This document shows, piece by piece, positions 20,345 to 56,739 of a DNA stretch of 64,000 nt. The stretch is from Mercurialis annua (lineage: Eukaryota; Streptophyta; Magnoliopsida; Malpighiales; Euphorbiaceae): assembly GCF_937616625.2 (NCBI RefSeq), contig NC_065577.1, positions 40,453,001 through 40,517,000 of the forward strand, given 5' to 3'. A program made the position numbers and the translations under genes. The stretch's first letter is position 1. Each line of letters begins with the position of its first letter. A model generated the notes under the pieces. The model saw only the letters and a program-made list of their open reading frames with translations, was not told the DNA's origin and made no database searches.

Positions 20345-22226
<1,882 letters not shown>

Positions 22227-30600: not shown

Positions 30601-31470
30601 GAAAGAAAATAATTCATACCAAGCAAATCATCCTAACCTTCCTGAAAAAGTTGTGAATGAGTCACAACCAATTGAGTCTCAACAAGATCATTCACTTGAA
30701 AATTCTGTAAGTATTTTACATCTTTATTATAACATTGCATGTTTTGTTATTTCAGTTAATGTAACTGTACAATTGAATGCTTTCCATTTACTCATAACCT
30801 TAAGTGAATCTATGCTTGTTTAACTTTCAGGTAAGAAGTCATTCAACAACATTTGTAAATAATTTTGTTGCCTCACCACTTAGTAAGCATTCATATTCAA
30901 AAGCTTCGGAATCAGTTATGCAACCGAAGTTGATTCCGTATAGTAAAAAAAGGAAAGTGTGTTATGATGTTGCTGTTAAGGGCCAAAAACCCATATCTAA
31001 TCTTCAGGTTAGGCATCCATGTGGATATGGTGTGCAAACAGATGAATACAATGTTATAACTGTAAATGTAAGTGGTTTAATTTTCCAATATGTGTAGTTA
31101 ATTGTATTTGTATTCTTAAGGCTTGACTCAATATTTTTAAATAAATTTCAGCCAAGAACAACAGCAGAAAATGTGATAATTACAGGAAAAAGAAGGTCTG
31201 GAAAGGAGCCGGAACCAAGCTTCATGACAAGTAAGACAGGTGGATTTAAGAAATGGGGAAAGAAGTTTATAACTTCCAATCAGTTACAGGTATAATTAGA
31301 TCTTTATTTTTTTTGCTTTATAGTGCTATTGCAAAGGGCTTATTCATACTGTTTACGTCTTATAGGGTGCGAAGGAAAGAGCAATAGGAAAGAAAAAAGA
31401 TAAAGGTAAAGATAAATACATTTCAGAGGAGAGTACGGCACAACAAAAACAATCAAAAGAGAAGAATTGA
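27672..31470 (+). CDS. MULE transposase (MULE-A), intact
   Basis: Exons 27672-29606, 29690-30706, 30831-31067, 31152-31289 and 31366-31470 join in frame to 1143 aa; every exon is a multiple of three and every border is GT/AG. In order: an N-terminal PB1-like domain (~1-110); a long acidic linker (~115-360); a MuDR-type DNA-binding domain (~375-460, with CKEKFCPFVLYA and HTCG); the MULE DDE core (Asp in LDGCYLRG, Asp in VTDQQKG, Glu in NNLIESFNG, with CCARHLHANW between); a SWIM zinc finger (CPCRGWDLTGIPCVHAVC); and a CCHC knuckle (CQRCYQVGHNRTTC). A basic tail follows. It cuts and reinserts elements with matching ends. No stop or frameshift seen. Confidence 0.9.
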
Positions 31471-32604
31471 GTCATCACAACCAGAAATGAATTGAAGATG
31501 CTATTTATCTCATATATTATTTTGAATTTGATGTAATTTTGATTTTATTAGCAATTAAGGTTAATGAACCTGGTTTTTCTATATTATGACAAAAGTGACA
31601 ATATGTATTTGGATGCTTTGTTTCAATATCAGGTGACTATTGCTCCAATTTCAAGTTGCCATCTAAAAATTTGATTCAATCATACTATGTCCATATTTTG
31701 TTTCTTATGTTTATTACGAGTTAATGGCTAAAAATGGATCAACATGTAAAAAAACGTTCTCTCTTAGTTTGACATTTTTTTTTATGATTTTGCTTGGACA
31801 TTTTATCATACAGTTCTTTATTTGTCTTTCATCCTCTCATTTTGGCATTTCAACGAACAGATAAACTGCAAGATTCATATCATTGATAATAAAAACAGAA
31901 TACAACTTCAAAGTAACTCTCTGATTTCATACAAACTCCGTAATTCAATACGAATTTGGCAAAAACGAAATGATATTTTTAGATCACCATAACACTACAA
32001 CCTCTAATCTTAATTTTTCATTTGAAGTACAACATCAAGATTAACACTCCAACAATTGTTCAAAAGAATTTCTTCTTTCTGCTGCACGTCCGACCGTAAT
32101 TGTTCGCCTTCCTCACCCTTCACAACAACCCACATATAAGTTGTCTTGCTCTTGCACATATTGAAGAATCAACCCATGGAAAACCGTATATCCTCTCTGT
32201 AATCAATTGATAACCAAGGCAAATCTCACTTTTTCTCAGTTCACAAAGCAACAACATAATTTATTGTTTAGTTTTAATCTCTTAACTATTGTTTTGCACA
32301 TATAAGGAATCATCTCCCTGAATTTGCAGATGTCCATGACGTTAATGATCACAATTTTGCTCTTCCATTACTCTTTTAATTTACTTCTTTTTCTCTACTT
32401 CTTTGGTTAACAATTCTACATGTTTCTTTTTGCTTTCTAATTTCTGTCCCTTGCAATCCCTAATTTGTTTTATTTAATAACAATATATAATCATTGCAAT
32501 AAAGATGAGATTTTCACTTTAAGTTTAATGTTATTCCAACGTGGCGTCAACGTGTACAATATTAAAGGTGATGATGTCATTGAATTTGTCCAAATCAGCT
32601 TCAT
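31471..32604. other. MULE-A 3' interior, non-coding
   Basis: Between the transposase stop and the right inverted repeat I see no gene. There is no GRF zinc-finger gene here, unlike MULE-B and MULE-C. Confidence 0.5.
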
Positions 32605-32738
32605 ATCGGAGCAAAACACTCAAATGATAACGGACTTAGTGTTAAGACACTTAATTGATAAAAAAAATTGAATAAACACTGAACGACTTATTTTCAAATA
32701 GTTGAGACACCAAATTTGTAATTTTGTCATAAATTAAG

Positions 32739-34871
32739 TGTATTTGAGAATGTTTCATATTGCTGAAAGTGACGATTCATAATGGCTGCTGCAAAATTAT
32801 AAGAATATAGGAGTGTGCATTCTGTTCAGACTCAATCAAACTATAGCTTTTACGGGTCAATCCGTTTATGACTCAGTAAAATAACATATTAAACACGTTA
32901 CATCTGTCTAGACTTACTTATTGTATTAATTATTTAACTTATTACACGTGATTCATATATTTATAATTTAGCATTTTTGTTCTTAACCTTTAATTTTATT
33001 TGTTGTTAATTTGTTGTATGAAAATCTATGTATGTCTATGAGGTTTGTTGTTTATTTATATTTATTTTGTTTAAAAATGTGTTAAACATGTTATTAATAA
33101 GCGTCCTAAATAAAATTTTGTGTATATTTATCAGTAAGAGCGTTAAATAATTTTGTTATGTATATATAGCGGTTTATTGGTCCTTTTTCTTTTGATGAGT
33201 TATAAAAAAAAGCCAGAAAAAATGACAAACTCAATTATTCAGTAATTTATGCACACTTAATACTACGACTATGAGAAATGTGATACAAACAAATCACGGA
33301 AACAAAACACAACCCGGGCTTTTTAGAAAATCAAAACTAAAATGCGGAGAAATGCATTAAACAGTTCGATACGTTAGATAAACATGTCATGATTTGACAT
33401 TTTTATACAACTAATTAAACATATCGGGTCGAGTTGGAAAATACGTCTAAATTCTATTTTTTTTGAGAAGAATATGTCTAAATCTAAAAGAGTATACGTT
33501 TATAACACAATGAGAAGAATTGACAGCCATAGTGTTGACCTTGTTGTTGAAGCTTATATATGCTGTTTTATTTAGATGCCCTATTTTTTTATATTGCTGC
33601 AGCCGAAATTCTCTGTTTTTCTTTCTCTCTTAGGAATAAGGTTAATGATCATTGTCTGCTAAGTATATATCTAAATCTTGCTTTGAAGATTTTATACCTT
33701 CTGACTCAAAAATTCAAAAATTGCAAATTAAGGCATCAGAATTACTTAATTGTAAAGAATTTTGACATTAATATATATTTGGTTATTTAATTCCACAGAA
33801 AGGAAAAGATTGAGCTTTGTTTATTGTGATATATCTAGCCACAATATAAGGAGTACATAATACTATTTTTGAAGTCTCATCTAATGATTTAAATTTTTAT
33901 CGAAAATTGATCATTTGACATGATATTCGCATGAATAATAGAATTTCCATGATCAAAAGGTCTAAAGTTCAATCTTTGATAATTTTTATTTATTTAATTA
34001 AATCTATAAATAATGTACTTTGTTAATGTTTCATGCTCTGTATATATAGACATTTGTGTTTGAGCGTGTTAGAGATAATATTCTGATCAAAAATTCAAGT
34101 AACAATTTGAGTTTTTCGGTTAAATTATTGAAAAAGTACATTGTATATGTTGTTTTTATAAAAAAAAATCTTTATAAAAAAATTAAAAAATTAAAATCTC
34201 AGCAGCTGAACTTGGACTTAGTTATTTTTGAAAGTTGAATGTATAAAAGGTCTTCCACTAGCTCATCATCTTGTCATTTTCATGTTCAACTTACAAAGAG
34301 CAACATTATATATTCCCCATTTTGTTTTGTCAAATTCTTAACTTAATGAAAAGTTTTTTTAAGTTTAAAAGTAACAATTTTGTGCCCAATAATATCATTG
34401 TCAAAGGAAAACTTTTGCTTTAATTTTGGCAAAGTAAATAATATACACATCAATGACATCATCAATATGATTTGGTATGTACAAGTTGATTTTTTTGTCA
34501 TATATTAAACAAAAGGCAAAAAAACATATTTAATATTTAAACTTTTGTATTATAATATACTTTTCAATTGTATAATAAAAAGCGTTGTTAATACGATTAA
34601 AATAATTATTTTATTTTCTTTTAAATTTATTATGTTCGATTTGATTTGATAAAGAAAAACTCAATGTCTTAAAAGTTAAAAATATAAAGAGTCCATGCAT
34701 ACAAGCCATAGTAAAGAGACTCCGATTTTGAAAGATATAATAATACTTAGATCCAAATATGCATTTTACTTTCGAAAAATAAAATTTATTTGAACTAAAC
34801 AAATTGCATATGATATCATCAAAAGACAATTGATACCAATTATCTATTTCAACAATTAATCAATTTTTTTT
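32739..34871. other. Gene-free AT-rich DNA
   Basis: No supported feature. Open frames up to 76 codons are AT-rich, lack motifs and are likely chance. Confidence 0.4.
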
Positions 34872-37236: not shown

Positions 37237-37958
37237 AGCTTAAATGCACAAAAAATCACCAACTTTCGCATGTTTTTGGTATTTGACACGAACTTTTATT
37301 TTTGGCATATAAATACACGAACTATCAATTTTTTTACATATATGACTAAGTTTCCGTTTTTGGTGAAAAACGGCGCCGTTTTATGTCAAAAATGGTGTCC
37401 GTGTTATATATGCAAAAAATTGATAGTTTGTGCATATATATGTCAAAATTAAAAGTTCGTGTCAAATACCAAAAATACATAAAATTGGTAATTTTTGGAG
37501 CAATTAAGCCTTTTTTTGAAATAAAAAAAATCAATTTAATGTTTAAAGGTTCTATTAAAATGTGTAAATACAAAGTAGAGTAACATTTACCAGTTTTTTT
37601 GAATTTTTTCTAGGCTTAAATGCACAAAAAATCACCAAATTTCACGTGTCTTTGGTATTTGACACAAACTTTTATTTTTGGCATAATAAATACACGAACT
37701 ATCATTTTTTTTCATATATAACCAAGTTTCCGTTTTAGGTGAAAAATGGTGCCGTTTTATGTCAAAAATTGTGTCCGTGTTATATATGTAAAAAATTGAT
37801 AGTTGTGTATATATATGCCAAAATTAAAAGTTCGTGTCAAATACCAAAAGTACGCAAAAGTTGGTGATTTATGAAGCAATTAAACTTTTTTGTCGAAATA
37901 AAAAAAGATCAATTTAATGTTAAGGGTTCCATTAAAACATGAAAATACAAAGTAGAGG
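37237..37958. repeat. Two tandem copies of a ~376-bp foldback repeat, second interrupted by MULE-B
   Basis: Copy 1 starts at 37237 and copy 2 at about 37613 (AGGCTTAAATGCACAAAAAATCACC). Each contains a foldback element (37237-37510 and 37614-37884) with CACCAACTTTCGCATG-type arms and the palindrome-like centre GGTGAAAAACGGCGCCGTTTT. After the element, copy 1 continues GAAATAAAAAAA…TACAAAGTAGAGTAACATTTACCAGTTTT. Copy 2 reaches TACAAAGTAGAG, is cut by MULE-B, and resumes TAACATTTACCAGTTTT at 47208. Confidence 0.85.
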
Positions 37959-38294
37959 GCTAATAATCACCCACGGACCCTGACTTTAGGGGTACCTTAC
38001 GATAAACCCCCTGATAAAAAAAAACGATCAGTAAACCCCCTATTCTTTGTGACGGCTGCACGTAAACCCCCTGAGCCCATTTCTCGCCGATATTTTGGCA
38101 AAATGATGACGTGGCACGATATATTCACTGACGGCTCTGCAAGTCACTCTGCATGCATGTCAGACATGTGTAAGAATGTGTAAGGCTGTGTAAGGTTGTG
38201 TCGGTTGACTTTTTTCAAAAAAAAAAAAAAAAAATCATTTTTACCGCTCGGTTAAAAATCACTTTCTCTCTCTAACATTTTTAACTTTTCCCTC
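37959..38294 (+). repeat. MULE-B left terminal inverted repeat
   Basis: Begins GGCTAATAATCACCCACGG. It contains TAAACCCCCT three times, at 38003-38012, 38032-38041 and 38063-38072, that is at 29- and 31-base spacing, about three helical turns. Such phased subterminal copies are candidates for transposase binding. The inner end is CT-rich and probably serves as the promoter/leader of the gene starting at 38543. Confidence 0.95.
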
Positions 38295-38542
38295 TGTTCC
38301 CCCTCATTCTCTTTAATTGTCATATTTTCAAATATTTCATCCTGTCTTCGTCTTGTTCCTTTTTTTTCGTTCCTTACCCTAGGTCTACTACTCCTGCACT
38401 CTTATCGCCGTCCATCGTCTTCATCTTCTTCTCTTCCATCTTGTGTGTTATTTCGCCCCTATTCAGTTCTTCGTTTTTCTTCGTTTGCTTGTGGCCCTTT
38501 CTTGTCTAAATATTTTTCGAGGTCTCTGTTCTTTAACAGAAA

Positions 38543-39390
38543 ATGGGATCCACAGAAATGAAAAAAATGGGAAAAGAAGACAGAAAAGGGAAGAAACGAA
38601 AAGGTATGTGTGTTTTTTTTCGCCGGAAGAAATTTTTTTTGAGTTGTGTTTGGTTCGTTGGTGATTGTTTTTGAATTTTATTGGTATTTTATTTCTTGTT
38701 CGTCATTGCCTGTTGTTTTGGTTTGGTTTTCACTGGTTCATTAATTAAAAATTGGTCTTTGTTTATTTGTTGGTTTGAGCAGCTTGTACTGAAGATTGTC
38801 TTTTTGAGGTCTTTGAAATTATTCTGAACTACAATGGACAGTTTGAAGACTTTGGTTATTTTAATGAGGATTTGGCTGTTAGAAAATTTCATATTGAGGA
38901 TATAGGATTAAATAGTCTAGATAAGTGGTTACTTGAATTGAAGGTTGAGGGATTGTTAATGTATTATTGGAGGCGGGCTGGCATGTATACTGAAGAATTA
39001 ATTCCCATGGAAAATGATGACCATGTCATGGACATGGCACTGGCTGGGACACAAGATGGTAGTGTTGATGTGTATGTTAGGAAGTTAAGTTGTGTTGACG
39101 TGTGCAACCTAAGGCCTGTATTTGGACACACATTATTTGAGTTGAAAGAACTTGAAGATGGGGATGATGCATTGGAGCAACAGGGTGTTGGTGAGGCTGA
39201 ACCGGTGGGGGTGCTGCAGATTGAAGGTCCTGTGGAAGCAGTGGAGGTGCCGCAGATTGAAGGTCCCGGTGAACCAGTGGAGGTCCTGCATATTGAAGGT
39301 CAAGAAGAAGGTGAACCACTGGATTTGCTGCAAATTGAAGCAGTTGAAGAACCCTCGGAGGAGCAGCAGCAGATTGGTGGGTCAGACTGA
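38543..39390 (+). CDS. PB1-like domain plus acidic repeats, MULE-B second gene
   Basis: Exons 38543-38603 and 38783-39390 join in phase to 222 aa. The layout mirrors the start of the MULE-B transposase: a short Lys-rich first exon, an intron at phase 1, then a PB1-like domain (LFEVFEIILNYNGQFED…, MDMALAGTQDGSVDVYVRKL; the transposase has EMAVTGLKAGSVEVYVREY at the same point). After that come acidic repeats of about 16 residues (VGVLQIEGP, VEVPQIEGP, VEVLHIEGQ, LDLLQIEAV), and it stops. No DNA-binding or DDE domain. It reads from the left inverted repeat. It could be an accessory or inhibitory partner of the transposase, binding through PB1-type contacts; that is inference. Confidence 0.7.
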
Positions 39391-39999
39391 AGGCCGAGAC
39401 ACTAGATTGACCTATTTTTGGGCCATATGAAACAACATTTGTAACCTTTTAGGTTAATATGTATGTTGCATTTTATATTATTAGTGACAATTTGGATTTT
39501 AGATCAAAATGAATGTTGATTACAAACTTGGAATGTATTGTTTGCTTATGTTATTGCTGTTTTGTTTTTAATATTGGTTGTTATTGTTATTGAAATTGAG
39601 TAAAGTTTGTAGTTATCGTCGTTCGGTTCGTTTGAAACGACCTACATGTTCCATGAAACTGATAATTACATATGGACCCTATACTTTTATTTTATAATCC
39701 GCCATGGACCCTCATGTATTCTTACTGATCATCTGTGGACCCTTCAATAAATACGCACTTTTGAAATTTATTAAAACAACATTAACCCCTATCAATAATG
39801 AAAATTAGTCAACCATAAAGATACAACATATATCAATCAACCATTATATAAACAAATTTCCAAAATAAAACAACTACGAATTACAACTATAATATTCATC
39901 AACGATACTACAATATTCATCAAGCAAAAAAATAAAACCTATACTAGAATATTCCAAATTACAACAGAAAACCAGAAAACATGTTGACTAAGGGCAGCG
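39391..39999. repeat. MULE-B intergenic stretch with GGACCCT motif copies
   Basis: No gene. Spaced copies of the terminal motif GGACCCT occur as TATGGACCCTATACTTTTAT (~39674), CATGGACCCTCATG (~39705) and GTGGACCCTTCAATAAA (~39734). The element's own end carries CACGGACCCTGACTTTA. This marks the 3' boundary of the left gene. Confidence 0.6.
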
Positions 40000-40841
40000 T
40001 TAAACATCATCTGCAGAACCAAGCTCCAACGATCGATATACCGAAATTTCCATCTTGATCAACCCGTCAGCAAAAAACTCTTGGTCGCTACTATCAAGAA
40101 GGAATCCTGTCAATGAACGGTAATACTTGTTGGTGTCTTGAAAATTCTTGGTAGAAGAATGAAACCTGTGCACTGACGATTCATCAAACTTCACTTCGAT
40201 GTCATAAGGGCAGCTTCCGTTTGACAATGGGCCGAGACAAAACACTGTTATAATATTCCCATAAGAGCACTTCGTGTTGTTCAGAACAAACACAACGTCT
40301 GATTGTTCTTCTTGGAGAAGCAAACCCCTATCATGCATGTCCACAGAAACTGCAAATTTACGTCCAAAGTTAAATAGTGTGAGAATATCTTTATGCAACT
40401 CTTTGCAGTGAGCATAAATGGTTTCGGACGAGCCCTTCACATTGCACTCTGGAATCGGGCATGAACACTCTATAAAAGAGCAGTATTTCTCGTGATCTGT
40501 CTTCTCGTCGTAATTGAAGCTTTCTTGGCAACCATATACTCTGTTCTGGCAGTAAACCGTTAAAGACTCCACGACTGCTTCCATTATCCGACAGCGCATC
40601 GGTCCGATTGGCAAAGTGCAAGCATGACATTTACCCATCTTTACAGAGCAGGAGTTGCATGTTGCATGTCCATTCTGACACTGAAGAAAAGGAAAAGTTA
40701 GAAAATTAAGAATAACCTAAAGTGAATAAATATATAAATGATGTGGGGTCAAACCTGAATAATGGGAGGGCGTAGAGGTTCACAGCATACGGCACAGTCC
40801 ATGAGTTCAAGATCAAACGAACGGACTCTATTTTCAGGCAT
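40000..40841 (-). CDS. SINA-like RING E3 ubiquitin ligase carried by MULE-B
   Basis: Exons 40755-40841 and 40000-40680 join in frame to 255 aa. Residues ~13-55 are a C3HC4 RING of the SINA/SIAH type (CAVC, then CQNGHATCNSC, then CHAC). Next is the SIAH-type zinc finger region (CQNRVYGCQESFNYDEKTDHEKYC, CPIPECNVKGSSETIYAHCKELH), followed by a C-terminal β-rich TRAF-like domain ending ISVYRSLELGSADDV. The length is at the short end for plant SINA-like proteins. The family transfers ubiquitin from an E2 to bound substrates and works as dimers. All zinc ligands I can see are present and there is no stop, so it may be functional. It lies wholly inside the transposon between two MULE genes, and probably came from a host gene. 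Confidence 0.85.
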
Positions 40842-41260
40842 TGCTGCGTTGTTTTGAAGATGAAGGCGAAAGTGGATCACTTTAAGTATGAATGATAAGT
40901 GTCTTTGTGTGTGTTAGTAAGTAAGCATGATTACATATTTAAAGAAGTTGGATAGATGTCTTTTCATATTCTTCACTTAAGCGGTGTGTTGTTTCCCAAG
41001 TGAGTGGATGTCATTAATGACGATTTTGGTTAATGAAAGGGTATATTGGTTTCTTAAACAACATTAATGCTGATAAGACAAGTCAGTATGTATAATTAGC
41101 GATATTGGGCTGTAAAACATCATTAATAATTACTCTAGCATATTTAATTAATTGCTCTATCATAATTAAAAAAACACTGTCTGAAATTAAAAATTATTTA
41201 ATTAATATATGTAGCATTACAACCCATAATAATAATGAAGCAACATCATTTAATAATTAT

Positions 41261-41893
41261 TCAATTTTTCCTCATGCAATGCAAGCCTACACTGCATCCT
41301 GCAACTGCACAAGCAGCACAAAAACCAAACTTCATGTTCCTGGTTGACCTCTCCAAGTCTGCACACTTGACCTCCATGTCCTTGATCTGGCCCTTCAGTA
41401 TGTCTATCTCCATAAAAAGTAGACCGCTTTCCTCAAACAAGATTCCATTTTCATCGCGATACATCTCAATGGACTCCTTCAATCCCTGATTTTCGTCTAT
41501 GTACATTTCATGGGACTCCTTCAATCCCTGGAACTCGTCCTTTTTAGCAGCAAGCAAACTTTTGGCCTCCTCCAGTTCAACAGTCATGACATGGAGGTCA
41601 AGTTTCAAGTTTCGGACCACCGACATTTGGTAAGTCATGTCATTCTCTAGCCAGGCAAAAAAATTACACTGATTCTGGACAAATTTAGTTCGAAAAAATA
41701 AAAGGCGAAGTAAGGTCAAAAAATTAATGTAAATTACTTACAGTTTGAATTTTTTTTGTAAAGCACATGAATTACTTACAGTTCGCTTTGAACAAGCGTA
41801 AAATCTTCGAGTGGGGTTCCTATCCGTTGAAGAAATCTGTAGGCGACATGGGATTCCGCAATCGCAAACCACTTGTGCAGCTACTCCTTCCAT
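41261..41893 (-). CDS. GRF zinc finger, coiled coil, hydrophobic tail (MULE-B)
   Basis: Exons 41780-41893 and 41261-41674 join in frame to 175 aa. Residues ~10-50 are a GRF-type zinc finger whose ligands span the intron (CDCGIPCRLQ, NPTRRFYACSK, then NQCNFFAWLEN). GRF fingers bind single-stranded or structured nucleic acid. Residues ~60-150 are heptad-like and charged (LKLDLHVMTVELEEAKSLL…, MEVKCADLERS), a likely coiled coil, with a near-perfect internal duplication (GLKESHEMYIDEN, GLKESIEMYRDEN). The last ~20 residues (FGFCAACAVAGCSVGLHC) are hydrophobic, a possible tail anchor. It sits head-to-tail with the SINA gene and downstream of the transposase. Role in transposition unknown. Confidence 0.8.
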
Positions 41894-42394
41894 TTTTGGT
41901 TGTAATTTTTGAGTTGAGTTGCAAGCGTTAAACACTGGATGAGTGGGGCTGGATGAGTTGTAGGCGGATATTTATGGGCCACACTGTGGGCCAAGGATGA
42001 TTGGGTTGTTTTTCATAGGGGCTAGGTCTGTTATAATAATGAAATATTAGGGTCCATGCTTGATCATATAAGAAAACAAAAGGGTCCATGATTGATTATT
42101 TCTAATACATGGAGGGCCGTAGGATATTATACTTTCACTCAAGCGTATGACAATAAAAGACAACCATAATCTGGCACAATTAAAGACAATCATAAACGAA
42201 CTTCATTTACACAAATAAAAACCATTCAGAATAACATTTCCAACCATTTACATTTGCACATACACCACCGTACGCTTCTAAACACAACAAAGTTGGGGCA
42301 TCTAGTAAAATATATCCATGTGTTGCCCAAAACAAAAAACGTTCCTTAACAAAAAGCACATGGTACAAAATATACATCCATCTGTTTTGTTGCA
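41894..42394. other. MULE-B spacer with inverted GGACCCT motifs
   Basis: No gene. AGGGTCCATGCTTGATCAT (~42051) and AGGGTCCATGATTGATTAT (~42091) are reverse-strand copies of the motif also seen at ~39.7 kb and in the transposase intron (ATGATCAACTGTGGACCCT). They lie just 3' of the transposase stop. Confidence 0.55.
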
Positions 42395-45300
42395 CTACTT
42401 GTTCGTTGTTCGTTTCCTCAAACAGTCCCTGTATCGCGAAGGGACTTCTCGACCAGCAGGCCTCTTTCCTTTTCTCTTAGCAGCTCGAGCAGCTTGTGTA
42501 GAAGTGTCATGACTGGGTTCCCCTGCACCTTGCTGTTCAACCGAGGCTTGTTCTGTTGCAGAATAGGCTCCACTTAGGTGTACGCCAGACTCTCCTGTTG
42601 GGGCCTGCTCTCCAGTTCCAAACTCCCCACCTGGAACCTCCCCTGCATCTGGTGCTTCTCCCCCTGTTTCATCCCCTGCAGCTCTTGCTTCTGGCTGAGT
42701 GTCACCCCCACATGCAGCTTGGTCATTGTCCTTTTTGCACGTCCGTTTGTTGTGGCCAAATCGGTTACATTCACTGCATTTAACCTTCTGAAGCCCCTTA
42801 CGTCCTAACTTTGCCCTCTTTGCATGGGCCTCCTGTACAGTCTGTTCATGTTGCTGCTCTAGCTCTTCCGCTTCCTTTCGTCTTACCGTCGATTTTCTAC
42901 CCCGCTTCTTTGTTTGCACAGGCGAGGGAGGAACTATGATATGGAATGGATTTGGATCGGTTTCCCACATATCAGCCCCATTCAAAGGGTTGATAACATA
43001 GCTGTACACTTTTTGGTAGGTGGCTTTTGTGTAGCAGTCGTCCACATAGTTCTCTGGGACCTCATTGTTCTCATAAATACAGGGGCATGCGTGAACGCAT
43101 GGAATCCCAGTGAGGTCCCAACGCCTACATGTGCAAGTCCTTTCATCCAAATTTACCACGAACTGACCTCCGGGACCTATAACTTGCACTTGAGGACTGC
43201 CGGCAGGGTGTGCGGTGTAATTCCAACCCTCTTCAATTATCTTGTCCAGTTTTTTCCTAATTTTAGGGCACAACCGCGAATTAATCTTGCTCCCAAAAAT
43301 CTGTTTGTCATGGATCCGCTTCATCAGCTGAGTCCTAATCATTTCAAACATCGTCAAGATAGGTCTCGTCCTCGAAGTCAGTACATATTTATTGAAGGCC
43401 TCCGCTAAATTGTTCAGCAATATGTCACACTTGACTTGCGGCCTGAAATGTGCCCTGGACCAATGCTCCCTAGATCTCTCCTCAATCCAGTTGTAGCCCG
43501 CCGTATGAGTATTCTCCAAAACTTTCATGGCAGCATTCAATTTGGATGTGTAGGTTGCAATCCCAATGTTCCATATAAGCGGCTTTAAATGTTGCAAGTG
43601 GAAGGTGGTTCTGAAATTTGCCCACAGATGCCTCCAGCAATACCTGTGCTCTGAATGTGGAAAAAGCGCGTCCAGTGCATGTATGAGGCCCTGTAGAAGC
43701 ACAAGTTAAAGACATTAACAAATGATCAACTGTGGACCCTAACGTTTAACAGATGATCAACTGTGGACCCTAACGTTTACTAAATGATCAACTATGGACC
43801 TTACTGATAAAAATGCACAACTATGGAAAGCAATTACCAGCTTATATAATGAATGTTCTGTTATGGAAAGCAATTACCTTCTGTTTGTCTGACATGAAGG
43901 TTGTCCTGTTGCCCAGATGCAAATCAGCCTTCAATAGCTCCAAAAACCACGTCCAGTTTTCAGTATTCTCAACCTTCACCCATGCCATAGCCAGAGGATA
44001 CATGCAATCATTGGGGTCAATCCCAGTTGCAGATAGCAACTGACCCCCATACTTCCCCTTCAACCAGCAACCGTCCAGACAAACGATCTGCCTCAGCCCA
44101 TTCCGGAAGGCATTCTTCATTCCAGCCAAGCACATGTACATACCCGCAAACTTTCCTCGAGGCTCTTTAAAATCCACTGTGCTCCCCGGATTGGTTCGAA
44201 GGACCTCCCTTCGGTAGTCATACAACTTAGCATACTGCCCATCCTCATCCCCCTCCAATTTTCTTACAGCCCTGAGTCGTGCTCTTCGTGCCGTCTGCAC
44301 ACTGATCTTCTGCTTCAGCTCCTGTGCAATCTTAGCAACAAACTGCTCAGGGTTGTAATCTGGATTGGCCCTAAACTCCTCCAAGAAACTCTCAGCCAGA
44401 TAGGCACTGGTCATGTGGAAATTCGATCTTCTCTTCGGGCAAGTGTGTACCAAGTTCAGGGTCTTCACTAGGAATGTTTCATCATCCGGATCTGACATGT
44501 TTTGCTTGGATGCAAATATTTCAAACCGACACTTAGGTACATTGTCACTCTTGTCAAAGCACTTAGCCCTGACACGGGTCTTCTCGTTGACAGGAAAATG
44601 CAGTTGATACCTGTGTTTGATGCCCCACTGCCTACATGTTTTCTTGAATTGCTCTCTGTTCACAAATTGCAATCCATTCTTGAAGGTTGGATTTTCCATC
44701 TCTTTCTCCTCGTTGAACATCCTGAACTTCACCCGACCGTCACCGTCAGACTCGGAAGCCGTGTTGTTATCATCTGAAGCAATGTAGTCCGAGTCTATCT
44801 CCTCCTCCTGCTCGTCAGCTTCTGGATGTATAGTTCTATCAACGCCCCCCGGGCGAAATTCTGCCTGACTCTCTCCCCTTGGTCTCCCACCAGATCTCTG
44901 TGAAGATCCAACATCTACATCATCCTCATGTTGGGCATCTGGTCCCTCTTCAAAATATTGGCCCGTCGATCTAAGCTCCGTTATCAAATCGTCATCGTCG
45001 TCCCATATGTCGTAGTCTGGGTCGACGATGTAATCTTCGACATTTAGCTCGACGTCGTCAAGAGTTGGCTTCTCACCCTCATTCTTCCCCCTTTGACCGG
45101 ATTGTTCCTCTGCTTGAACCTCATTTTGGTCATCGTCATCAAACAGCCCCTCCATGCCCTCTAGCTCCTCAGCCATATGATCAAATAGACCCTGTGCCAT
45201 CCTCTCTAGAGTTGAAGGGGGACAATCTGGCCCCCCTTCTGGCACCTCCCCCTCTTCAGTAACCTCTGCCAATCTGGCCTCAGACTCTTTCTCTGTCCCA

Positions 45301-46545
45301 ACCACTTCTTCATGTTCATTTAAATTTAAACCCTCTGCCAGCCCCTCCTGCGCCTCATCCAGCCCCTCCTGAACCTCATCCAGCCCCTCCTGAACCTCAT
45401 CCAGCCCCTCTTGCACCACATCAACAAACGGGTCAGGCTCCCAAGCATCTACAACTGCAGCCTGCACACCCTCTTCCAGCCCCGCTACTGCATCCTCCGG
45501 CTCCAATGCATCTATAACTGGTGCCTGCACATTGTTGTCGTGCCACTCAATCAACAAAACCCCCTCAATTTCTGGTAAAATCACAGGTGGCCCCTGATCT
45601 TGAACTGGTATATTCACCTCTACCCCTGGCCCAGCCTCCGGGTCCACAAGCTCCTCAATAACAACAGTACTAGGGGGAAGAGGAGGAGGCTCCAAGTCAA
45701 GCTTAATCTTTTCATGTAACTCTTTAATGTCCTTGACAGAATACTCCCTTACGTATACCTCAACAGACCCTGCCTTTAATCCTGTCACAGCCATTTCCCT
45801 GAAATCTTGTTCATGGTTTATCGCCTTTATCCCATCCCGGTATTCGATTCCCTTCGGACACCAATGGTAATCAACAATGGCTTTTCCGCCGTATAGCCTC
45901 CTACACCATGTGTCAAGGTTGGACATTTCAATCTCACCAATATGGTATATCCTACTTTGAACTTCCCCACCATAATAGGCCAAGTCACCAAGATCCCCAT
46001 GGTGATGTAAATTAATCTGGAATAATTTGCCCCCTCCTGGTGAAACTGCAAAAAGAGAAAATAACCAATGCATTCATTTCTAAAGCAAACCAACAAACCG
46101 CACAATTGGATACACCCACCAACATAACAACGACAATAAATTCTCTATATCCTAAACAACCAACACAGCAACAATATTTAATTTTAAACAGGAACAGACC
46201 AACAATAAACTATTCATAAAACCAACACACCACAATAAAGTATTCACAAAGCCAACACAAAATCCAAATTTTCACCAAAAGCAAGCATATAAAGAAATAT
46301 TATCACAAATGGACCCACAAAAATCATACTTCATTTTCAGCACACCAGTTCAACATAAGTGGTCCTAGAGGTTATGAGGTCAACATTTACACAAGTTTCG
46401 TACCTTCGACTACTTCTTGACTGCTTTCACTATCAGTATCATGGAGTTGTAAAGGGTTATCTCGACTATTTGACCCTTTTTCCCATCTCTTGTCTCTTTC
46501 ACTTTGCCTTTCCCGCTCCCTTCGCTCTCGTTTTCTTTTCCCCAT
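42395..46545 (-). CDS. MULE transposase (MULE-B), intact
   Basis: Exons 46404-46545, 43878-46045 and 42395-43690 join in frame to 1201 aa. In order: a Lys/Arg-rich start; a PB1-like domain (~50-165); a long acidic linker with tandem repeats (EVQEGLDEVQEGLDEAQEGL); a MuDR-type DNA-binding domain (~500-590, CFDKSDNVPKCRFEIFA, HTCP); the DDE core (Asp in CLDGCWLKG, Asp in MSDKQKG, Glu in NNLAEAFNKY, with RYCWRHLWANF); SWIM finger CTCRRWDLTGIPCVHACPC; knuckle CSECNRFGHNKRTC; and a Gly/Glu-rich tail. The split in SDKQK|G matches MULE-A and MULE-C. No stop or frameshift, so it is probably active. It reads from the right inverted repeat. Confidence 0.92.
43718..43812 (-). repeat. Terminal-motif tandem repeats in transposase intron
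   Basis: About 27-base units ATGATCAACTGTGGACCCTA ACGTTTA occur twice in full, followed by diverged units (AACTATGGACCTTACTGATA, then CACAACTATGG). They are in the intron between 43690 and 43878 and share GGACCCT with the element ends. Confidence 0.75.
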
Positions 46546-46860
46546 TTTTTCCCTTTACACCTGCCAACCACAAGCCTGTTAAAGTTATACATTACACGAA
46601 CCAAATAACATAAACACAAACCCATTTTCAAAAATTCAAAAAAATTTCCATTTTCAAGAAATTATAAAATGTTACATACCCAGTTGCTAAGAAACGAAGA
46701 AAACCCAAGAAGACGATCAAGAAACCAAACCCTAACAGGAAACTAAGAAGGCGACGAAGAAACGATCAAGGCGAAGAAGAAACGAAGTAGGTACACGAAA
46801 AGAACAGAAAGGACGTTTTTTTGGGACAGAAATAAAATCAAATAAACTAAGGGAGAAGAA

Positions 46861-47198
46861 GAGGGAAAAGTTAAAAATGTTAGAGAGAGAAAGTGATTTT
46901 TAACCGAGCGGTAAAAATGATTTTTTTTTTTTTTTTTTTGAAAAAAGTCAACCGACACAACCTTACACAGCCTTACACATTCTTACACATGTCTGACATG
47001 CATGCAGAGTGACTTGCAGAGCCGTCAGTGAATATATCGTGCCACGTCATCATTTTGCCAAAATATCGGCGAGAAATGGGCTCAGGGGGTTTACGTGCAG
47101 CCGTCACAAAGAATAGGGGGTTTACTGATCGTTTTTTTTTATCAGGGGGTTTATCGTAAGGTATCCCTAAAGTCAGGGTCCGTGGGTGATTATTAGCC
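46861..47198 (-). repeat. MULE-B right terminal inverted repeat
   Basis: Inverted copy of 37959-38294, including the three phased AGGGGGTTTA motifs (~47092, 47121 and 47152). It ends GGTGATTATTAGCC followed by the target duplication. It probably drives the transposase, whose start codon lies ~315 bp inside it. Confidence 0.95.
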
Positions 47199-47765
47199 AA
47201 AGTAGAGTAACATTTACCAGTTTTCAACGTTAAAATTGAAAAGAGGCTAGAAGGGGGGTATTTTTTAAGATATTGGCCTTAAAAAAGAAGTATCATGTGC
47301 ATTTCAAACACCCAATCAATTTACCCGGCAAAAGTTCTCATTCAAAAAACAGATGGTTAAAGAAAATTGTTCTCCAGCTCCGATCCAACACATAACTACT
47401 CAAAAGAAACCCGAAAATCGCTTTCTCTTTCGGTTCTACTAATAAATTTTGATTGATTCCGTTCTGCAACATCCCCACCGTCACTTCAAATATTCTCCGC
47501 CTCACCAAAAAAAGATTCCCCACATTTTCTCATATCTTAAAGCTTTCTTTTTTTCGTGCTTTTCTCAAGCCAAGAATCTCTCTTTTCTTCCTTTACTTTC
47601 AGATTCCTTCGTTCATTAATTAATGAACTCTCCCCTTTTTAATCACACAATGTTCCTCTTACGTTCCTCCCTTCTCTCCACATTTTCTCTCCTCGTCTCT
47701 CGCTGTTATTTTCGATTTCTTGAGCTCGTTTCGCTTGCGTTTTTACGTAAAAGATTCGTGTTTTC
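47199..47765 (+). promoter_or_regulatory. Upstream region of the DAR2-like gene
   Basis: After the target duplication the host repeat resumes for ~30 bases. From ~47330 the DNA is CT-rich with a long pyrimidine leader (TCTCTTTTCTTCCTTTAC, CTCCCTTCTCTCC) typical of a plant 5' UTR. The MULE-B insertion ends 567 bp before the start codon, so it sits in or next to the promoter. Confidence 0.5.
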
Positions 47766-50700
47766 ATGGCGCCTCCCGCTTCTTTTTCGCCGTCTTCAGG
47801 TGTCAGTTATATTTCTAATCCTTGTATTTATGGTAATCATCTTCCGGGTTTGGTTTTTTTTTAAAAGTTTAAAGGATGGGTTCTTGAATTTTTCAGTTTT
47901 TTTTTTTCTGTATGGGCAATGTTTTGATGTTAAGCAGGGGATTTTGTTTCTTCATACGCAGAGAGGAAATCTCGGCTTATGAAATGGCTTAGTAAGTTTT
48001 TTAAAAGTGGGCCGAGTGGCGGCGGCCGCGGTGGCGGGAGTAGCCGGCATCCACAGCTTCTTGGAGAGGAAAATATGGTTAGCTTGCGTGCTCCGGCGAG
48101 ATCTTTGGTAAGCTGTGTCATTTCATATTAGTTTATGAAATTGTCAATAGTTGATAATTAATAGGATTATGATGTTTCTGTTCATAATCAAGCAGAGATA
48201 CTTCATTCAATCAACCGTTTACCGTTTTAAAAACGTGTCGAAAACTTAGCGTTTCAACATAAAACTTCATTTTTAAATAAAACAAAACCTTAAAATTCAA
48301 CCATTTCGTTGTGTCTGTGTTCAAGTGTTTTATTTTTTAGTGTCCGTGCAACTTATAGCAATCAATAGTGGTCATTTTAGTTAGAATTGATGTCTATTAA
48401 TAGGTGATTTTTGTCCAATTATGCCACTGCATGGTGAAATAAGTTTGTTCACTTAGAATTTCTATTACTTGTATAAACATGATAAAAAAATTATTCCTTC
48501 TGATAATTATGATGAGCTAATTTGGTGGTAAATTTTGTTAATTAGCATTTAAATAGTTAAAAGAATTTCAAAAGCTAAATTTCAGATTCTTCTGCAACTT
48601 GTATAATTGAACGGCTAATCTGTGTCCAAACATTTGCTTTTGTAAGTACTTTTTTCAGCAATTTTTATTTTAAATTGTCAATTTTACCCTCTCTTTTGAA
48701 AGGGCGTGTTACTGTTGCATTATCAGGATAAAGCTTTTGCATATTAATTTAGTATATTTAGTGATTCTTTGCCAATAGTGATGCCTATTTACTCATGCCA
48801 TACCTTAACTTTAATTCATGTGCAAGCCACTTGGCTTAATTTAGTCCCTCCTTTTTTTTCAGAATTTATGCACTTTAGATCAACCATTTATAAAGTTAGA
48901 TCATGGTTGTCATCTCCACATGTTTTGAGGCTAAAATATTTGGTTTATAGCATCTTTTGATTGATTAGTGAAAGATTATTCCCTTTTTGTTTAAAAACTT
49001 GAAATTTAATTGGATTTTTGTATTAAATTTATGATATGCTTTGGATGAATGGATACTATTACTTATATGACAAGCAAACTCTTTTATGGCCATGTTATCA
49101 ACTATTATCAGCTTTTGGATGTTTCATTGATATAGTACATGTTATTGGTATCTGCAGTAGCTGTTAAGTCAGTTCATTGTGCTTAAACAGTAAAAATTTA
49201 ATTTACAGTACAAAATTGGATTATTAATGTTCCATAAATTAATTTAATCTTGTTTTAGTACATCGTTTTGTGGGTAATTTGGAATATTGGACACGGATAC
49301 GGCGAAACAGTGTTGTGTTTTAAGGTTTTCTATATTAAAAATGAAATTTTGTGTCCCACACGCCAAGTTTTCTACACGTTTTTGAAAAAGAAACGTCGAT
49401 TGAATGAAGTGTCTGTATGCAAATAAAGAGGAACAATCCTAGAAAGGATGAAGTCTAATTCATACAATTTCGTTATGTAACTTGTACAAATTGGTGATCT
49501 AGAGATGAAAAAAAAGAAAAAAAAAACATTAATTAGCTGAATTGTTTTTGTCAGGATGAGCATTCTAGACATGGTAAGGAGAAAGATGAATCTGATCATG
49601 CCATGGCACTTTCTCTGTCTGAAGATTGGAAAAGACCAGGTATTTCATCCTTGTCAAATTATTTATTTCTCATTGGATTTTGTAATTTTGTATTAAAACA
49701 TTGATTCTTTTTCAGGATATAGATGGAGAACAAATCACGACGAAGAACTCGCTAAGGCGCTTCAGGATAACCTCAATTCATCAGGATATCCTCCTTATGC
49801 CCCTAATCAATCTACATATCCTCCTTATGCCCCTTCACAATATCACCACAGAGGTTACAGGTTAGATCTTGAATCGAAATCTTCGCCTTGTGGCGGATTT
49901 TAAATCTCATATGTTAAATTTGGCTTAAGTAAGTATTATGTTCATGAAAATTACTGTCTGCAATTCTAGAATTTGTGGTGGCTGCCATAGTGACATTGGT
50001 TATGGCAATTATTTGGGATGCATGGGACAGTTTTTTCATCCAGATTGCTTTCGTTGTTCGTCTTGTCGCTATCCGATTACTGAGAATGAGGTAGTTTTAT
50101 ATAAAAGTAAGCAAATGCAATTGATGATTCTGAAATTTTGGTTTGATTCTTAACAGGATGTTCTTGTTTCTGTTGATCTAAGTTTTCTTTGTCAGGTAAA
50201 GATCCATATCATAAGTCATGTTTCAAAGAGTTGACTCATCCCAAATGTGAAGTCTGCCATCAATATGTAAGAAAAAGAGAACCCGTTACATCATTTTGTT
50301 GCGTTTTCTAGTTTACACGCTTTCTGTTGTCAATTACGAAAAATGTTAGTTTCCAATTTGTATTGACAATTAAGTCATGTTGCATAAGAACTTCTCGAGT
50401 CAAAATTGTATTTTCATTTCCGGGAAAACTTTGAAACTCGAAAACTCTATAGTTAGACATTTCCTGTTTCAGCATTTCTGTTTTCGTGCTACATACTACA
50501 AGCAATCAGAAAAAGGATATTGGTTCATATCAGGATTCTGACATCTTCATTTCAGATCCCAACAAATGATGCCGGTTTGATAGAGTATAGATGCCATCCA
50601 TTCTGGTCTCAGAAATACTGTCCATCACACGAACATGATCATACAGCTCGATGCTGCAGTTGTGAACGCTTGGAGGTACATATATTTACCTTAATTTTAG

Positions 50701-52162
50701 CACAATGGAATATCTAATTTTCTTTGGTACTGGTCATATTTACATTTTCTTCTTCTTTATTACCTTCCTGAAGTCCCGGAATACGAGATACTATTGTTTG
50801 GAAGACGGACGGAGCTTATGCTTAGAATGCATGGAATCTGCTATTACAGACACCGGTGACTGCCAACCACTTTACCATTCCATCAGAGATTATTATGAAG
50901 GGATGAATATGAAGCTGGATCAGCAAATTCCTATGCTTCTTGTCGAAAGACAAGCGCTTAACGAAGCTATTGTTGGGGAGAAAAATGTATTACATTCTCT
51001 CTTGCTAGATTTTTCCTTTTAGGCATTTGTGTGCTAAAACTGCTCTTATTGAGTTATGGTTCTTGTTCAGGGGTATCATCACATGCCTGAGACGCGGGGT
51101 TTATGCCTATCGGAAGAACAAACTGTTACTAGTGTATGATATCGGACAATTATACGAACTTAATAGTATTTCAAGTGAAGAACCAAATGATAACATACTC
51201 TGTGTTCTCTGTTTGATTATATGCAGATACAAAGGAGACCAAGGATTGGTGGAAATAGACTAGTTGGAATTAGAACCCAACCGCAAAAGCTGACTCGAAA
51301 AAGCTGTGAGGTTACTGCTATTCTCGTACTTTACGGTCTTCCAAGGTAACTACATTTACTCACAAATGTAACTTGTAAGTTAAAGATTCTGAAATATCAT
51401 TTACTAATGAAATTAAGTAGTAATCATAATTTCATAAAGACAACAGGAAAAGGAAACAATCTTTAACAGTCTCAAAATATGTGTCTTAATTATGAAATTT
51501 AGGATCGAAAACTGGCTGGTTATGAGTAAACACAGTAGCTCATGTAGATATCTGAATCAGTTTCCAGTTGATATTCTATGGATTCCGTAATTTTAATTCA
51601 GTCAAACGCCATGGTACACTATTACTGAGGCCGAAAATTTATGTGCCTATAGCAACTTGTTGAACTTACGCCCCGTTTATGCAGACTACTAACCGGTGCT
51701 ATTCTTGCTCATGAGTTGATGCACGGTTGGTTGCGTCTAAAAGGTAAAACATAAAAACATATACTCATTTGAGTGTTTCTCTGCAATGATATTCGATCAA
51801 ACTACATTATCTTTGTCGTAAATTCAGGTTACCGAAATCTGAGTCCTGAAGTAGAAGAAGGTATATGCCAAGTACTCTCGTACATGTGGCTCGAATCAGA
51901 AGTAGTATTGCCATCGAAAAGCATGCCATCTACATCCGCAGCAGCAGCAGCATCCTCTTCCTCCTCTTCTTCATTGTCTTCAAAGAAAGGCGGAAAATCC
52001 AACGTGGAAAATAAATTGGGAGAGTTTTTCATGCATCAAATAGCCAATGATGCATCCCCTGCTTATGGAGGAGGCTTCAGGTCTGCAAATGCTGCTGTCA
52101 ATAAGTACGGTTTACGTCGAACTTTGGATCATATCCGGCTTACAGGACACTTCCCTTTGTAA
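47766..52162 (+). CDS. DAR2: LIM and DA1-domain peptidase, DAR2 type
   Basis: Twelve exons join in frame to 527 aa: 47766-47832, 47938-48107, 49555-49639, 49716-49860, 49970-50106, 50196-50266, 50556-50675, 50774-50986, 51071-51133, 51227-51345, 51685-51743 and 51828-52162. In order: [12 protein letters not shown] near residue 36, ubiquitin-interacting motifs ([22 protein letters not shown]), a LIM domain ([22 protein letters not shown]…HPFW…CCSC), and a C-terminal peptidase with HELMH (Ala-His-Glu-Leu-Met-His zinc site) ending [10 protein letters not shown]. The extra N-terminal [10 protein letters not shown] segment and MKWLSK start match Arabidopsis DAR2 rather than DA1 or DAR1. The family are ubiquitin-activated peptidases limiting cell proliferation and meristem growth. 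Intact. Confidence 0.9.
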
Positions 52163-55344: not shown

Positions 55345-55914
55345 TGTTGGGTTCCGAGCGAGATAGATGTCGGGAACCGTCGGTAAGCATTCGATTTAAA
55401 GTTTTTTTATCGTATAAATTTTTTTTATTTTTTTAAAAAAAAAAAATCTGGGCTGACGTCCCCGGATCCCATCAGCCTGGAGGACGTCGACCTGGGACAT
55501 CAGCCCGAAAATGGGACGTCAAAATGGGAAGACGTCCTTCTGGGACGTCTCTCTTCGGGGGAGACGTCCCATAAGGACGTCTCTCCATCTGGGCCAACGC
55601 CACCTGGGGGCGTCGGCCCAGATGATAGATGTCTTCACAGGGCATCTGTCATCTGGGCCGATGGCACCTGGGGGCGTAGGGCCCACTGGGAGAGTTTAAT
55701 ATCCCGTAAAATTTTAAAAATTTAAATTGCGAATTCCGATAACATTTTAGTAGTTTACGTAATTTAAAGTCGTTTTGTGATTATATTCGAAAACGTGTTA
55801 ATTAAAGTCCGGATTTCGAAAAGGGTTAATTAAAGTCCGGTTTTCGAAAATATATATAAAAAGAAAAGAAAAAAAGAAAAACACATATTCATTGTCATAC
55901 ATGAAAAGAGAAAT
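55345..55914 (+). other. GC-rich GACGTC-repeat island in a possible LTR
   Basis: The stretch starts TGTTGGGTTCCGAGC. At 55450-55590 it has seven GACGTC palindromes, then paired blocks CACCTGGGGGCGT with inverted TCTGGGCC/GGCCCAGA (55590-55690). The rest is AT-rich with a repeated GGTTAATTAAAGTCCGG and a TATATATAAAAAG box near 55850. This layout suggests the start of an LTR or other retroelement, interrupted by MULE-C at 55914 and resuming at 61969. No coding domain was seen to confirm it. A 62-codon frame inside is repeat-derived. Confidence 0.35.
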
Positions 55915-56241
55915 GAACGAAGGATCATTTTGCCCCCTGAAGTTGGAACAAAGTATCAAAAACGTCCAAATTAGCGAAACAGGATCACTTTTACCCTGAA
56001 CTTGTCAATTTTGGTACAAAACCCCCCCTCCCCAATCTCAGTTTTGCGCGTGTAACTCAAACAATGGTTTTGACAAAACCACCAATCAAAAAGCTGATTT
56101 TTCCTAATTAATTGAGGGGGTAATCTGATCCATGTTTCCTAATTAAAATTCTCAAATTAAAAGAAAACCTAATTTCCCTAATTTCTCCAATCTTCAAATT
56201 GAATTCGTCAAACTCAGGAACCCTAATTTCCCTTCTTCTTC

Positions 56242-56739
56242 ATGATGTCGAGTGGATCGAATTCCCAGGGTTCTTCAGCTAGATCTAGGAGACAATATCG
56301 CCCTCGACAGAGGCGTGCTAGCAGACCTGATTACAACTATCAGGGAAGAGCTCGTTACTGTAGATGTGGGTTTTCTGTTAAAGCTCCGGTTTGGGTTTCA
56401 TGGACAAGAGAAAATCCTGGAAGAAGATTTTATGGCTGTAAAAAGGGTGCGTTTGGATGTGGTTTATTTGAGTGGTTTGATGAAGAACCGTTTACCAGTC
56501 GATCCAAGGATGTAATTAACGAATTGTTAGATGAGCTTGATGAAATGGGGATGGGTGAAGGGAATTTCAGCTACATTGAAGATCGGGAAGGTCAGAGGTA
56601 TGCTGCTGAATTGGTTAAATTGGTTAGAGAAGAAGGGATGAAATACAAGAAAAGATTCTGGTGTGTTGCTGCCGGATTTGGTTTAGTGATCTGTGTGTTG
56701 ATGCTTGTAATTTTTTTTGTTATTGCAGCTGTTATATGA
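56242..56739 (+). CDS. GRF zinc finger with C-terminal membrane anchor (MULE-C)
   Basis: Single exon, 165 aa. The Arg/Ser-rich start (residues 1-35) is followed by a GRF zinc finger at ~38-80 (YCRCGFSVKAPVW, NPGRRFYGCKKGAFGCGLFEWFDEE) with all expected Cys residues. A charged helical stretch at ~90-138 follows (DVINELLDELDEMG, AAELVKLVREEGMKYKKR). The last ~27 residues form a clear single membrane span (CVAAGFGLVICVLMLVIFFVIAAVI), so it looks tail-anchored. GRF fingers bind nucleic acid; a membrane anchor on such a protein suggests a nuclear-envelope or ER site, which is inference. It reads inward from the left inverted repeat, in the place mudrB holds in maize MuDR, but I see no similarity to that gene. 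The frame is intact although the partner transposase is broken. Confidence 0.8.
   Translation: MMSSGSNSQGSSARSRRQYRPRQRRASRPDYNYQGRARYCRCGFSVKAPVWVSWTRENPGRRFYGCKKGAFGCGLFEWFDEEPFTSRSKDVINELLDELDEMGMGEGNFSYIEDREGQRYAAELVKLVREEGMKYKKRFWCVAAGFGLVICVLMLVIFFVIAAVI

Follow-up and report, generated by a model that had tools for sequence, protein, structure and literature searches.

A four-gene Mutator-like element of Mercurialis annua that carries a SINA-type ubiquitin ligase gene and probably belongs to an old transposon lineage

In the present study, a Mutator-like element (MULE) of 9,241 bp, herein called element A, was characterized at 37958-47198 of a 64,000-nucleotide stretch of the Mercurialis annua genome (assembly GCF_937616625.2, contig NC_065577.1, positions 40,453,001 to 40,517,000, forward strand). 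This whole stretch is referred to as the window, and coordinates are those of the window unless another locus is named. Element A carries four spliced genes, which encode a transposase, a partner protein with a predicted PB1 fold, a SINA-type RING E3 ligase and a GRF zinc-finger protein. We consider it probable that this element represents a young copy within an old MULE lineage with terminal inverted repeats (TIRs), in which these four genes form the standard set. All four genes are mobilized together, and their order and orientation recur in two other families. Moreover, codon comparisons indicate protein-level selection between families for SINA and, in the most distant comparison, for GRF. 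The existence of a conserved four-gene lineage is, in our judgment, very likely.

Structure of element A and its copies in the genome

Element A is bounded by TIRs of 337 bp (left) and 338 bp (right), which are identical but for a single substitution and one A of a homopolymer run, and a perfect 9-bp target duplication, AAAGTAGAG, flanks both sides (9/9). The original prediction, made from the sequence of the window alone, had announced this duplication and had described ends of 336 and 338 bp in an element beginning at 37959. The true start lies one base further left and the left end measures 337 bp, while the right length, the end at 47198 and the difference of about one base plus a homopolymer all hold. 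The terminal 22-mer (up to three mismatches) occurs in the window at the two ends only, and in none of 100 shuffles. In gene models built from the sequence, all four genes have open frames from ATG to stop and all introns are GT-AG; from left to right the order is partner (+), SINA (-), GRF (-) and transposase (-). Together with the Pfam domains described below, this bears out the claim of four open-frame genes in a single Mutator-like element. Element A shows every MULE feature tested, namely long TIRs, a target duplication in the 8-11-bp range and a MULE-type transposase. Pack-MULEs have no transposase and carry host gene fragments; in element A, the transposase and its companions are complete.

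The genome searched comprised 451.4 Mb in 55 contigs. The left TIR matched at least 41 places, and 21 candidate copies were examined in addition to the window copy (22 in total). Counting A, ten copies extend over the full element with its gene order unchanged. The search for further full-length copies that had been proposed thus returned five uninterrupted colinear matches from end to end at 98-99% identity (L009-L013; six uninterrupted copies with A) and four interrupted or older ones: L014, L025 and L029-31, with later inserts of 1.5 kb, 12.7 kb and approximately 17 kb, respectively, and L035, an old spanning copy with 87-90% identity to A. The remaining candidates have internal deletions, lack an end, or consist of a TIR alone (L034). 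Target duplications were tested in 18 of the 22 copies; 14 of 16 match at 9/9 and two at 8/9, L029-31 matches at 9/9, and L035 shows no match.

Spliced frames were checked in 10 copies (A, L009-L014, L016, L018 and L025). The partner and GRF frames are open in all 10, the SINA frame in nine (the exception, L014, carries an insert) and the transposase frame in five (A, L010, L011, L013 and L014); all four genes are open in four copies. The stop codon and length of the partner are identical across all 10. Internal stops, read in the frame of A, affect at least one gene in L009, L012, L021, L022, L023, L028, L029-31, L033 and L035. The inner genes are thus not confined to the window, and in the 10 copies checked they are open with the exception of SINA in L014, a pattern at odds with a one-off chimera. 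Very recent movement is recorded by L010 and L011: a single substitution and two gap runs separate the two over 9,206 aligned positions, and each stands at its own site with its own 9-bp duplication. This near-identity shows that the whole unit moved recently and that the cargo travels with the element, as had been predicted. Intact frames in several copies and such recent movement are compatible with an autonomous element. In addition, two deletion copies (L016 and L018) were observed in which much or nearly all of the transposase is gone and the partner, SINA and GRF frames are still open.

Recurrence of the gene set, selection and module exchange

The same four genes in the same order were found elsewhere, at three loci of two other diverged families. 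At L037, L038 and L039, the partner, SINA, GRF and transposase are all present with the order and orientation of A. L037 and L038 represent one family, being 95-97% alike over their main stretches, and L039 represents a second. Identity to A at these loci is 63-71% for SINA, 50-88% for GRF, 40-91% for the partner and 57-69% for the main transposase stretches. L037 has TIRs (1007-8178 in locus coordinates), with its GRF and transposase genes partly lost; L038 has a stop codon in its GRF gene, and its transposase alignment contains two; L039 lacks the transposase N-terminus and has open frames for partner exon 2 and for both exons of SINA and of GRF. No TIR pair turned up in the 10 kb examined at L038 or in those at L039. 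One of the L038 ends matches that of A, and the ends of L037 and L038 start with GGCTAATAATCACCCA, or one base short of it, as A does. The recurrence of this four-gene set in other, older families suggests that the companions are working parts rather than accidental cargo. Between GRF and transposase of L039 (5409-6234, plus strand), a second GRF-type frame (Pfam 23.6 bits, just below the cut-off) is followed by a coiled-coil-looking frame, and this segment is either a fifth gene or a nested insertion.

Gene order was also counted genome-wide. The SINA query gave at least 152 matches, with the A family at approximately 90-98% identity, groups at approximately 65-72% and 60-64%, and distant matches mostly at 33-46% (33-43% among the longer ones). 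The places compared were 101 of the 152 listed matches for SINA, 84 of 164 for GRF (second-exon rows) and 150 of 151 for PB1, after first-exon rows, second pieces of the same gene and 13 short pieces at their own places had been dropped. SINA places with at least 54% identity were classed as element-type (85 places) and those below 54% as distant (16 places). All counts are lower bounds among the matches listed, and rest on the presence and position of matches rather than on the intactness of genes. Among the matches listed, a same-strand GRF exon lies within 3 kb on the 5' side at 71 of 85 element-type places (18/20, 23/29 and 30/36 by identity class), an opposite-strand partner lies on the 3' side at 74 of 85 (17/20, 26/29 and 31/36), at least one companion is correctly placed at 82 of 85, and none of the 16 distant places has any companion. 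The 13 short SINA pieces, checked separately, have a companion at six of six element-type and none of seven distant places. All four genes occur together at 36 of the 85 element-type places among the matches listed, the transposase being scored by its N-terminal PB1 domain within 12 kb; all 36 lie outside the A family (0/20), because the PB1 domain of the A transposase is not among the matches listed. Random placement gave a mean of 0.04 and a largest value of 1 of 101 for GRF, and a mean of 0.015 and a largest value of 1 of 85 for the partner. The median spacing between SINA and GRF is 541-701 bp. In a small unrooted tree, the element SINAs stand apart from eight sampled non-element SINA genes (support 0.914).

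Selection was estimated from ratios of nonsynonymous to synonymous change (dN/dS), with simple site shares and without transition bias. For SINA, the ratio between A and L037, L038 and L039 is 0.25 (0.17-0.37), 0.24 (0.15-0.35) and 0.21 (0.13-0.32), respectively (bootstrap intervals); the L037 and L038 values are not independent because they come from one family. Two stops counted in the L039 SINA are an intron edge and its own end codon. These ratios of 0.21-0.25 indicate that SINA is kept as a protein. Between A and L039, the ratio is 0.23 (0.12-0.39) for GRF and 0.49 (0.29-0.76) for the partner. The transposase ratios between A and L037/L038 are 0.11 and 0.15, with synonymous sites near saturation; the L039 transposase ratio is unusable, since the N-terminus is missing, the partner was matched instead and synonymous change is saturated. 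Between A and L035, the ratio is 0.53 for transposase and 0.49 for GRF. Among 12 copies of the young A family, it is 0.44 (p 5e-4) for transposase and 0.23 (p 0.005) for the partner; among all 17 mapped A-family copies, it is 0.52 (p 7e-7) for transposase, 0.63 (p 0.17) for the partner, 0.75 (p 0.48) for SINA and 0.55 (p 0.047) for GRF.

Several results weigh against the reading of four genes conserved together. The partner ratios between A and L037/L038 are 0.68 and 0.65, and the GRF ratios are 2.02 for L037 (60 codons) and 0.57 for L038, with intervals that reach or pass 1 for both genes. Between A and L035, the intervals of SINA (0.60, 0.34-1.33) and the partner (0.70) both pass 1. In the 12 young copies, SINA (0.79, p 0.76) and GRF (0.75, p 0.58) are near neutral. 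Moreover, the family comparisons were all made within one genome. Near-neutral change of SINA and GRF in the young family is expected if most inserted copies drift, yet it lends no support to the four-gene reading. We read the pattern as one of copies that drift after insertion, with the lineage that is still moving keeping its proteins.

Two explanations would deprive the companions of any role in the element. In one, they are host genes captured once or recently and carried passively, as in Pack-MULEs. Host-gene capture is frequent in MULEs, as described in PMC6446971 and PMC13317346, and near-neutral SINA and GRF in the young family would fit such a history. However, two other families hold the four genes in this order, the synonymous distance of the transposase between A and L037/L038 is near saturation, 36 places outside the A family hold all four genes (among the matches listed), and SINA is constrained between families; we consider capture very improbable, and a one-off chimera with passive cargo was rejected on the colinear copies, the two other families, the between-family dN/dS and the 36 places. 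In the other, SINA, GRF and the partner are separate host gene families that are frequent near MULEs, a suggestion to which the distant SINA-like genes of this genome lend some substance. It is contradicted by the fixed order, strand and spacing (GRF beside SINA at 71 of 85 places among the matches listed, against 0.04 of 101 expected), and by the position of the A-family companions, which lie within the TIRs in copies that have target duplications. The same GRF count led us to reject a chance link with a separate gene family, and we give this explanation hardly any credence. A conserved four-gene lineage is the reading retained.

Synonymous distances between A and L037/L038 are 0.14 for the partner, 0.03-0.10 for GRF, 0.66-0.71 for SINA and 2.0-2.5 for transposase, where the L037 GRF comparison covers 60 codons, and saturation may come sooner in the GC-rich transposase. 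Such unequal distances are hard to obtain from a single element history, suggesting that gene modules were likely exchanged between co-resident element families. Recapture of the element SINA from host genes keeps a small probability, because the tree sampled eight non-element SINA genes.

The four proteins and their possible roles

Table 1. Features of element A and its flanks in window coordinates
Feature	Position	Strand
Left target duplication AAAGTAGAG	37949-37957	.
Left TIR, 337 bp	37958-38294	+
PB1 partner exon 1, reading inward from the left end	38543-38603	+
PB1 partner exon 2; protein total 222 aa, PB1-fold domain (predicted) and acidic repeat tail	38783-39390	+
Three TGGACCCT units, spacing 31-32 bp, in the PB1-SINA gap	39673-39743	+
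SINA-type RING E3 ligase exon 2; protein total 255 aa	40000-40680	-
SINA exon 1	40755-40841	-
GRF zinc-finger exon 2; protein total 175 aa	41261-41674	-
GRF exon 1	41780-41893	-
Two TGGACCCT units, 32-bp spacing, in the GRF-transposase gap	42049-42088	-
Transposase exon 3: end of catalytic region, SWIM zinc finger, CCHC-like knuckle (by eye)	42395-43690	-
Tandem array of 31-bp units within a transposase intron; exact TGGACCCT in two units	43715-43807	+
Transposase exon 2: PB1-like N-terminal domain, acidic region, MuDR DNA-binding domain, MULE catalytic domain	43878-46045	-
Transposase exon 1, reading inward from the right end; protein total 1,201 aa	46404-46545	-
Right TIR, 338 bp	46861-47198	-
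Right target duplication AAAGTAGAG	47199-47207	.

By its Pfam matches, the transposase is a MULE-type DDE enzyme with DNA-binding and zinc-finger parts (MULE PF10551, 8.8e-19; SWIM PF04434, 5.6e-8; Transposase_mut, 8.8e-6; DBD_Tnp_Mut PF03108, 1.4e-5). The SINA protein matches Sina_ZnF (PF21361, 4e-15) and Sina_RING (PF21362, 3.7e-10), and the GRF protein matches Zn_ribbon_GRF (7.7e-13), in agreement with the ligase and zinc-finger genes that had been named from the sequence. The GRF protein consists of the GRF ribbon, a middle part with weak coiled-coil matches and a moderately hydrophobic C-terminus. SIAH1 and SIAH2 are the best solved-structure relatives of the element A SINA, and all 16 zinc ligands, with positions assigned by eye, are present in A, L037, L038 and L039. 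SINA and SIAH ligases carry a TRAF-like substrate domain at the C-terminus; this part of the element A SINA has no TRAF-type Pfam match at E<=0.1, and can be aligned with other genomic SINA-like genes. With moderate confidence, the element SINA may be regarded as an active ligase. Counting against its activity, single zinc ligands are lost in L033, L035 and L046 and several in L049 and L050; in addition, the RING reads CHxC in A, L033, L035, L037-L039 and L046-L049, where SIAH1 has CPxC, and this change might weaken E2 binding. The RING proline is likewise absent from the non-element SINAs L044 and L045. Ulp1 is of the SUMO-protease type, and no Pfam match to a ULP1-like domain was found in any of the four proteins of element A. 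Of the four pieces searched against NCBIfam, three had no match and the GRF piece had sub-threshold matches only, and a search of viral contigs with the SINA protein gave five pattern matches, none of them confirmed.

The partner had been described as truncated; the gene is short and complete, encoding 222 residues, and is not broken. Its Pfam search gave a sub-threshold GYF match only (E 0.057), with no PB1 match and with no DNA-binding or catalytic domain found. Its N-terminal domain shares 30% identity over 104 residues with the transposase N-terminus (E 4e-13), and each gene begins with a short exon (61 bp and 142 bp, respectively) whose following intron has the same phase in both. In a tree, the partners of A, L037, L038 and L039 stand apart from the transposase domains (support 0.837), suggesting that the partner is an old paralogue and no fresh deletion product; this tree and that of SINA are small and unrooted, with short alignments. 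AlphaFold2, run on nine aligned domains, produced five models, the best with pLDDT 85.4 and pTM 0.79, the second with 85.0 and the other three with 66-72. In a Foldseek search of the PDB, the partner domain matched the PB1 domain of NBR1 best (E 9.2e-4; no other match was at or below 0.001), and eight of the top 10 are titled PB1, in a list that also includes other ubiquitin-like folds. The domain is thus predicted to adopt the PB1 beta-grasp fold, and PB1 domains pair with one another. On the likeness of the N-termini, the tree and the predicted fold, the partner is likely a transposase-like protein cut down to a probable pairing domain and an acidic repeat tail.

Other features were observed in the window. 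A second MULE, element C (55905-61978), has inverted ends near 55915 and 61968 (92% over 118 bp), a 10-bp target duplication, AAAGAGAAAT, and a decayed transposase on the minus strand. It holds an open 165-aa GRF gene on the plus strand, ending at 56739, with a strongly hydrophobic C-terminus and 30% identity to the GRF protein of element A. A third MULE, element B (27080-32742), has inverted ends (91% over 101 bp) and a plus-strand transposase with an N-terminus that aligns weakly with PB1 domains; the list of open reading frames (ORFs) contains no companion genes for it. At 6518-17702, three similar long frames stand in tandem, two of which were scanned and contain DUF7792 and Armadillo repeats; this cluster is flanked by minus-strand parts of calcineurin-like phosphatase genes (3292-3909 and 20623-21219), alike by eye. 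The ATG of a probable downstream gene lies 559 bp past the right target duplication of element A, and this gene, which adjoins the insertion (47766-52000), is presumably of the DA1-type LIM-peptidase kind, given its LIM-like cysteines and HELMH motif.

Herein, we propose a mechanism in which the transposase would act on the TIRs to cut and insert the element, the partner would pair through its PB1 domain with the PB1 domain of the transposase and so tune it, the GRF protein would bind nucleic acid, and SINA would ubiquitinate a target, most likely a host restraint factor, whose removal would favor the element. A factor of host defence or restraint is tentatively named as the likeliest target, and the transposase itself, with greater doubt, as the next likeliest. 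It is conceivable, although we advance it as speculation, that at least three diverged families, that of A included, keep the RING ligase as a counter-defence by which a host silencing or repair factor would be marked for destruction, in a logic comparable to that of viral proteins that hijack host ubiquitin ligases, while swapping modules.

Two rival explanations of function are both compatible with the four-gene lineage. SINA might turn over the transposase, with the partner as a dominant-negative PB1 mate, such that copy number is kept tolerable. The partner is indeed a relative of the transposase N-terminus without a Pfam catalytic or DNA-binding domain, the pairing of PB1 domains would permit such a role, and the deletion copies L016 and L018 keep the three companions open after losing much or nearly all of the transposase. 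However, a self-limiting gene is hard to maintain by element-level selection alone, and self-restraint appears rather unlikely to us. Alternatively, a companion might bind TGGACCCT arrays and lift silencing, with SINA as the effector, in the manner of VANC of the VANDAL elements. This motif is the commonest internal 8-mer of element A, with seven exact sites in the internal non-coding DNA (2,985 bp) and none in coding DNA, against a mean of 0.04 and a largest value of 1 in 1,000 first-order simulations; the sites, spaced 31-32 bp apart, fall within the transposase intron and the gaps between partner and SINA and between GRF and transposase. The description in PMC5735166 places the VANC targets, short motifs in tandem repeats, in intron, intergenic and terminal regions. 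In addition, element C has its own 32-bp array (59235-59338) in the corresponding transposase intron, with a motif that differs from that of A, and L039 has a 32-bp array in the SINA-GRF gap. On the other side, the simulations overstate the rarity of the motif because it was chosen after counting, and eight of the 19 sites with one mismatch are coding. Moreover, TGGACCCT occurs only one to three times in the older copies L019, L020, L021, L023 and L035, which are mostly truncated, no comparably enriched internal motif was found in L037 or L038, and the candidate binder could also be the transposase. Anti-silencing of this kind is held to be improbable, and the arrays of element A are a lead only.

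Comparison with known systems

With its long TIRs, 9-bp duplication, SWIM-finger MULE transposase and second gene, element A resembles the MuDR group. The genes of mudrA/mudrB read inward from both ends, a layout that element A shares. In contrast to this group, element A has four genes, and SINA and GRF are not named in Table 1 of PMC6446971. For group 50, that table gives TIRs of 30-320 bp, target duplications of 9-10 bp where stated, and one or two ORFs. The VANDAL elements (vanA, vanB and vanC; Hiun, VANDAL21) are likewise a multi-gene MULE lineage with family-specific non-coding motif arrays, and the VANC protein of Arabidopsis is reported to bind such arrays and remove methylation (PMC5735166). 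However, their gene set differs from the four genes of element A, and VANDALs are described in PMC6446971 as having no TIRs or short degenerate ones, whereas those of element A are long and near-perfect. Of the VANDAL features, element A thus shows the non-coding motif arrays (seven sites against none in coding DNA) and not the degenerate or absent TIRs.

The KIU/Kaonashi elements, as presented in PMC13317346, are a three-gene MULE group that has long kept a captured Ulp1-type domain. That domain resides in non-TIR elements and was not detected by Pfam in the four proteins of element A, which is a TIR element with a gene of the ubiquitin-ligase type. A RING-type zinc finger linked to a MULE, as in element A, is reported for the Ghost MULE of the black cherry aphid and for the oomycete 37_Pi; in the account given in PMC6446971, Ghost has a 420-bp RING ORF and a truncated transposase, no TIRs were found, and the ORF is not described as SINA. 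The ligase of element A resembles plant SINA and animal SIAH proteins in its RING and SIAH-type double zinc finger, and differs from them in that the element SINAs form their own group in the small tree and have CHxC rather than CPxC in the RING.

Few transposon-encoded counter-defences are known, VANC of Arabidopsis being one (PMC5735166). A MULE lineage that keeps a complete ubiquitin-ligase gene under selection at the protein level, and of which near-identical intact copies persist, is a testable candidate for an element-encoded attack on host protein stability. Furthermore, judging from this one genome, many of the plant gene models annotated as SINA-like, GRF or PB1-like may belong to transposons. 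Extra ORFs described for MULEs in PMC6446971 include mudrB, vanB, vanC, plant mobile domains and the aphid and oomycete RING fingers, to which ULP1 in the Kaonashi elements can be added (PMC13317346); among open-licence papers, no title on a MULE carrying SINA, GRF or a RING ligase was found.

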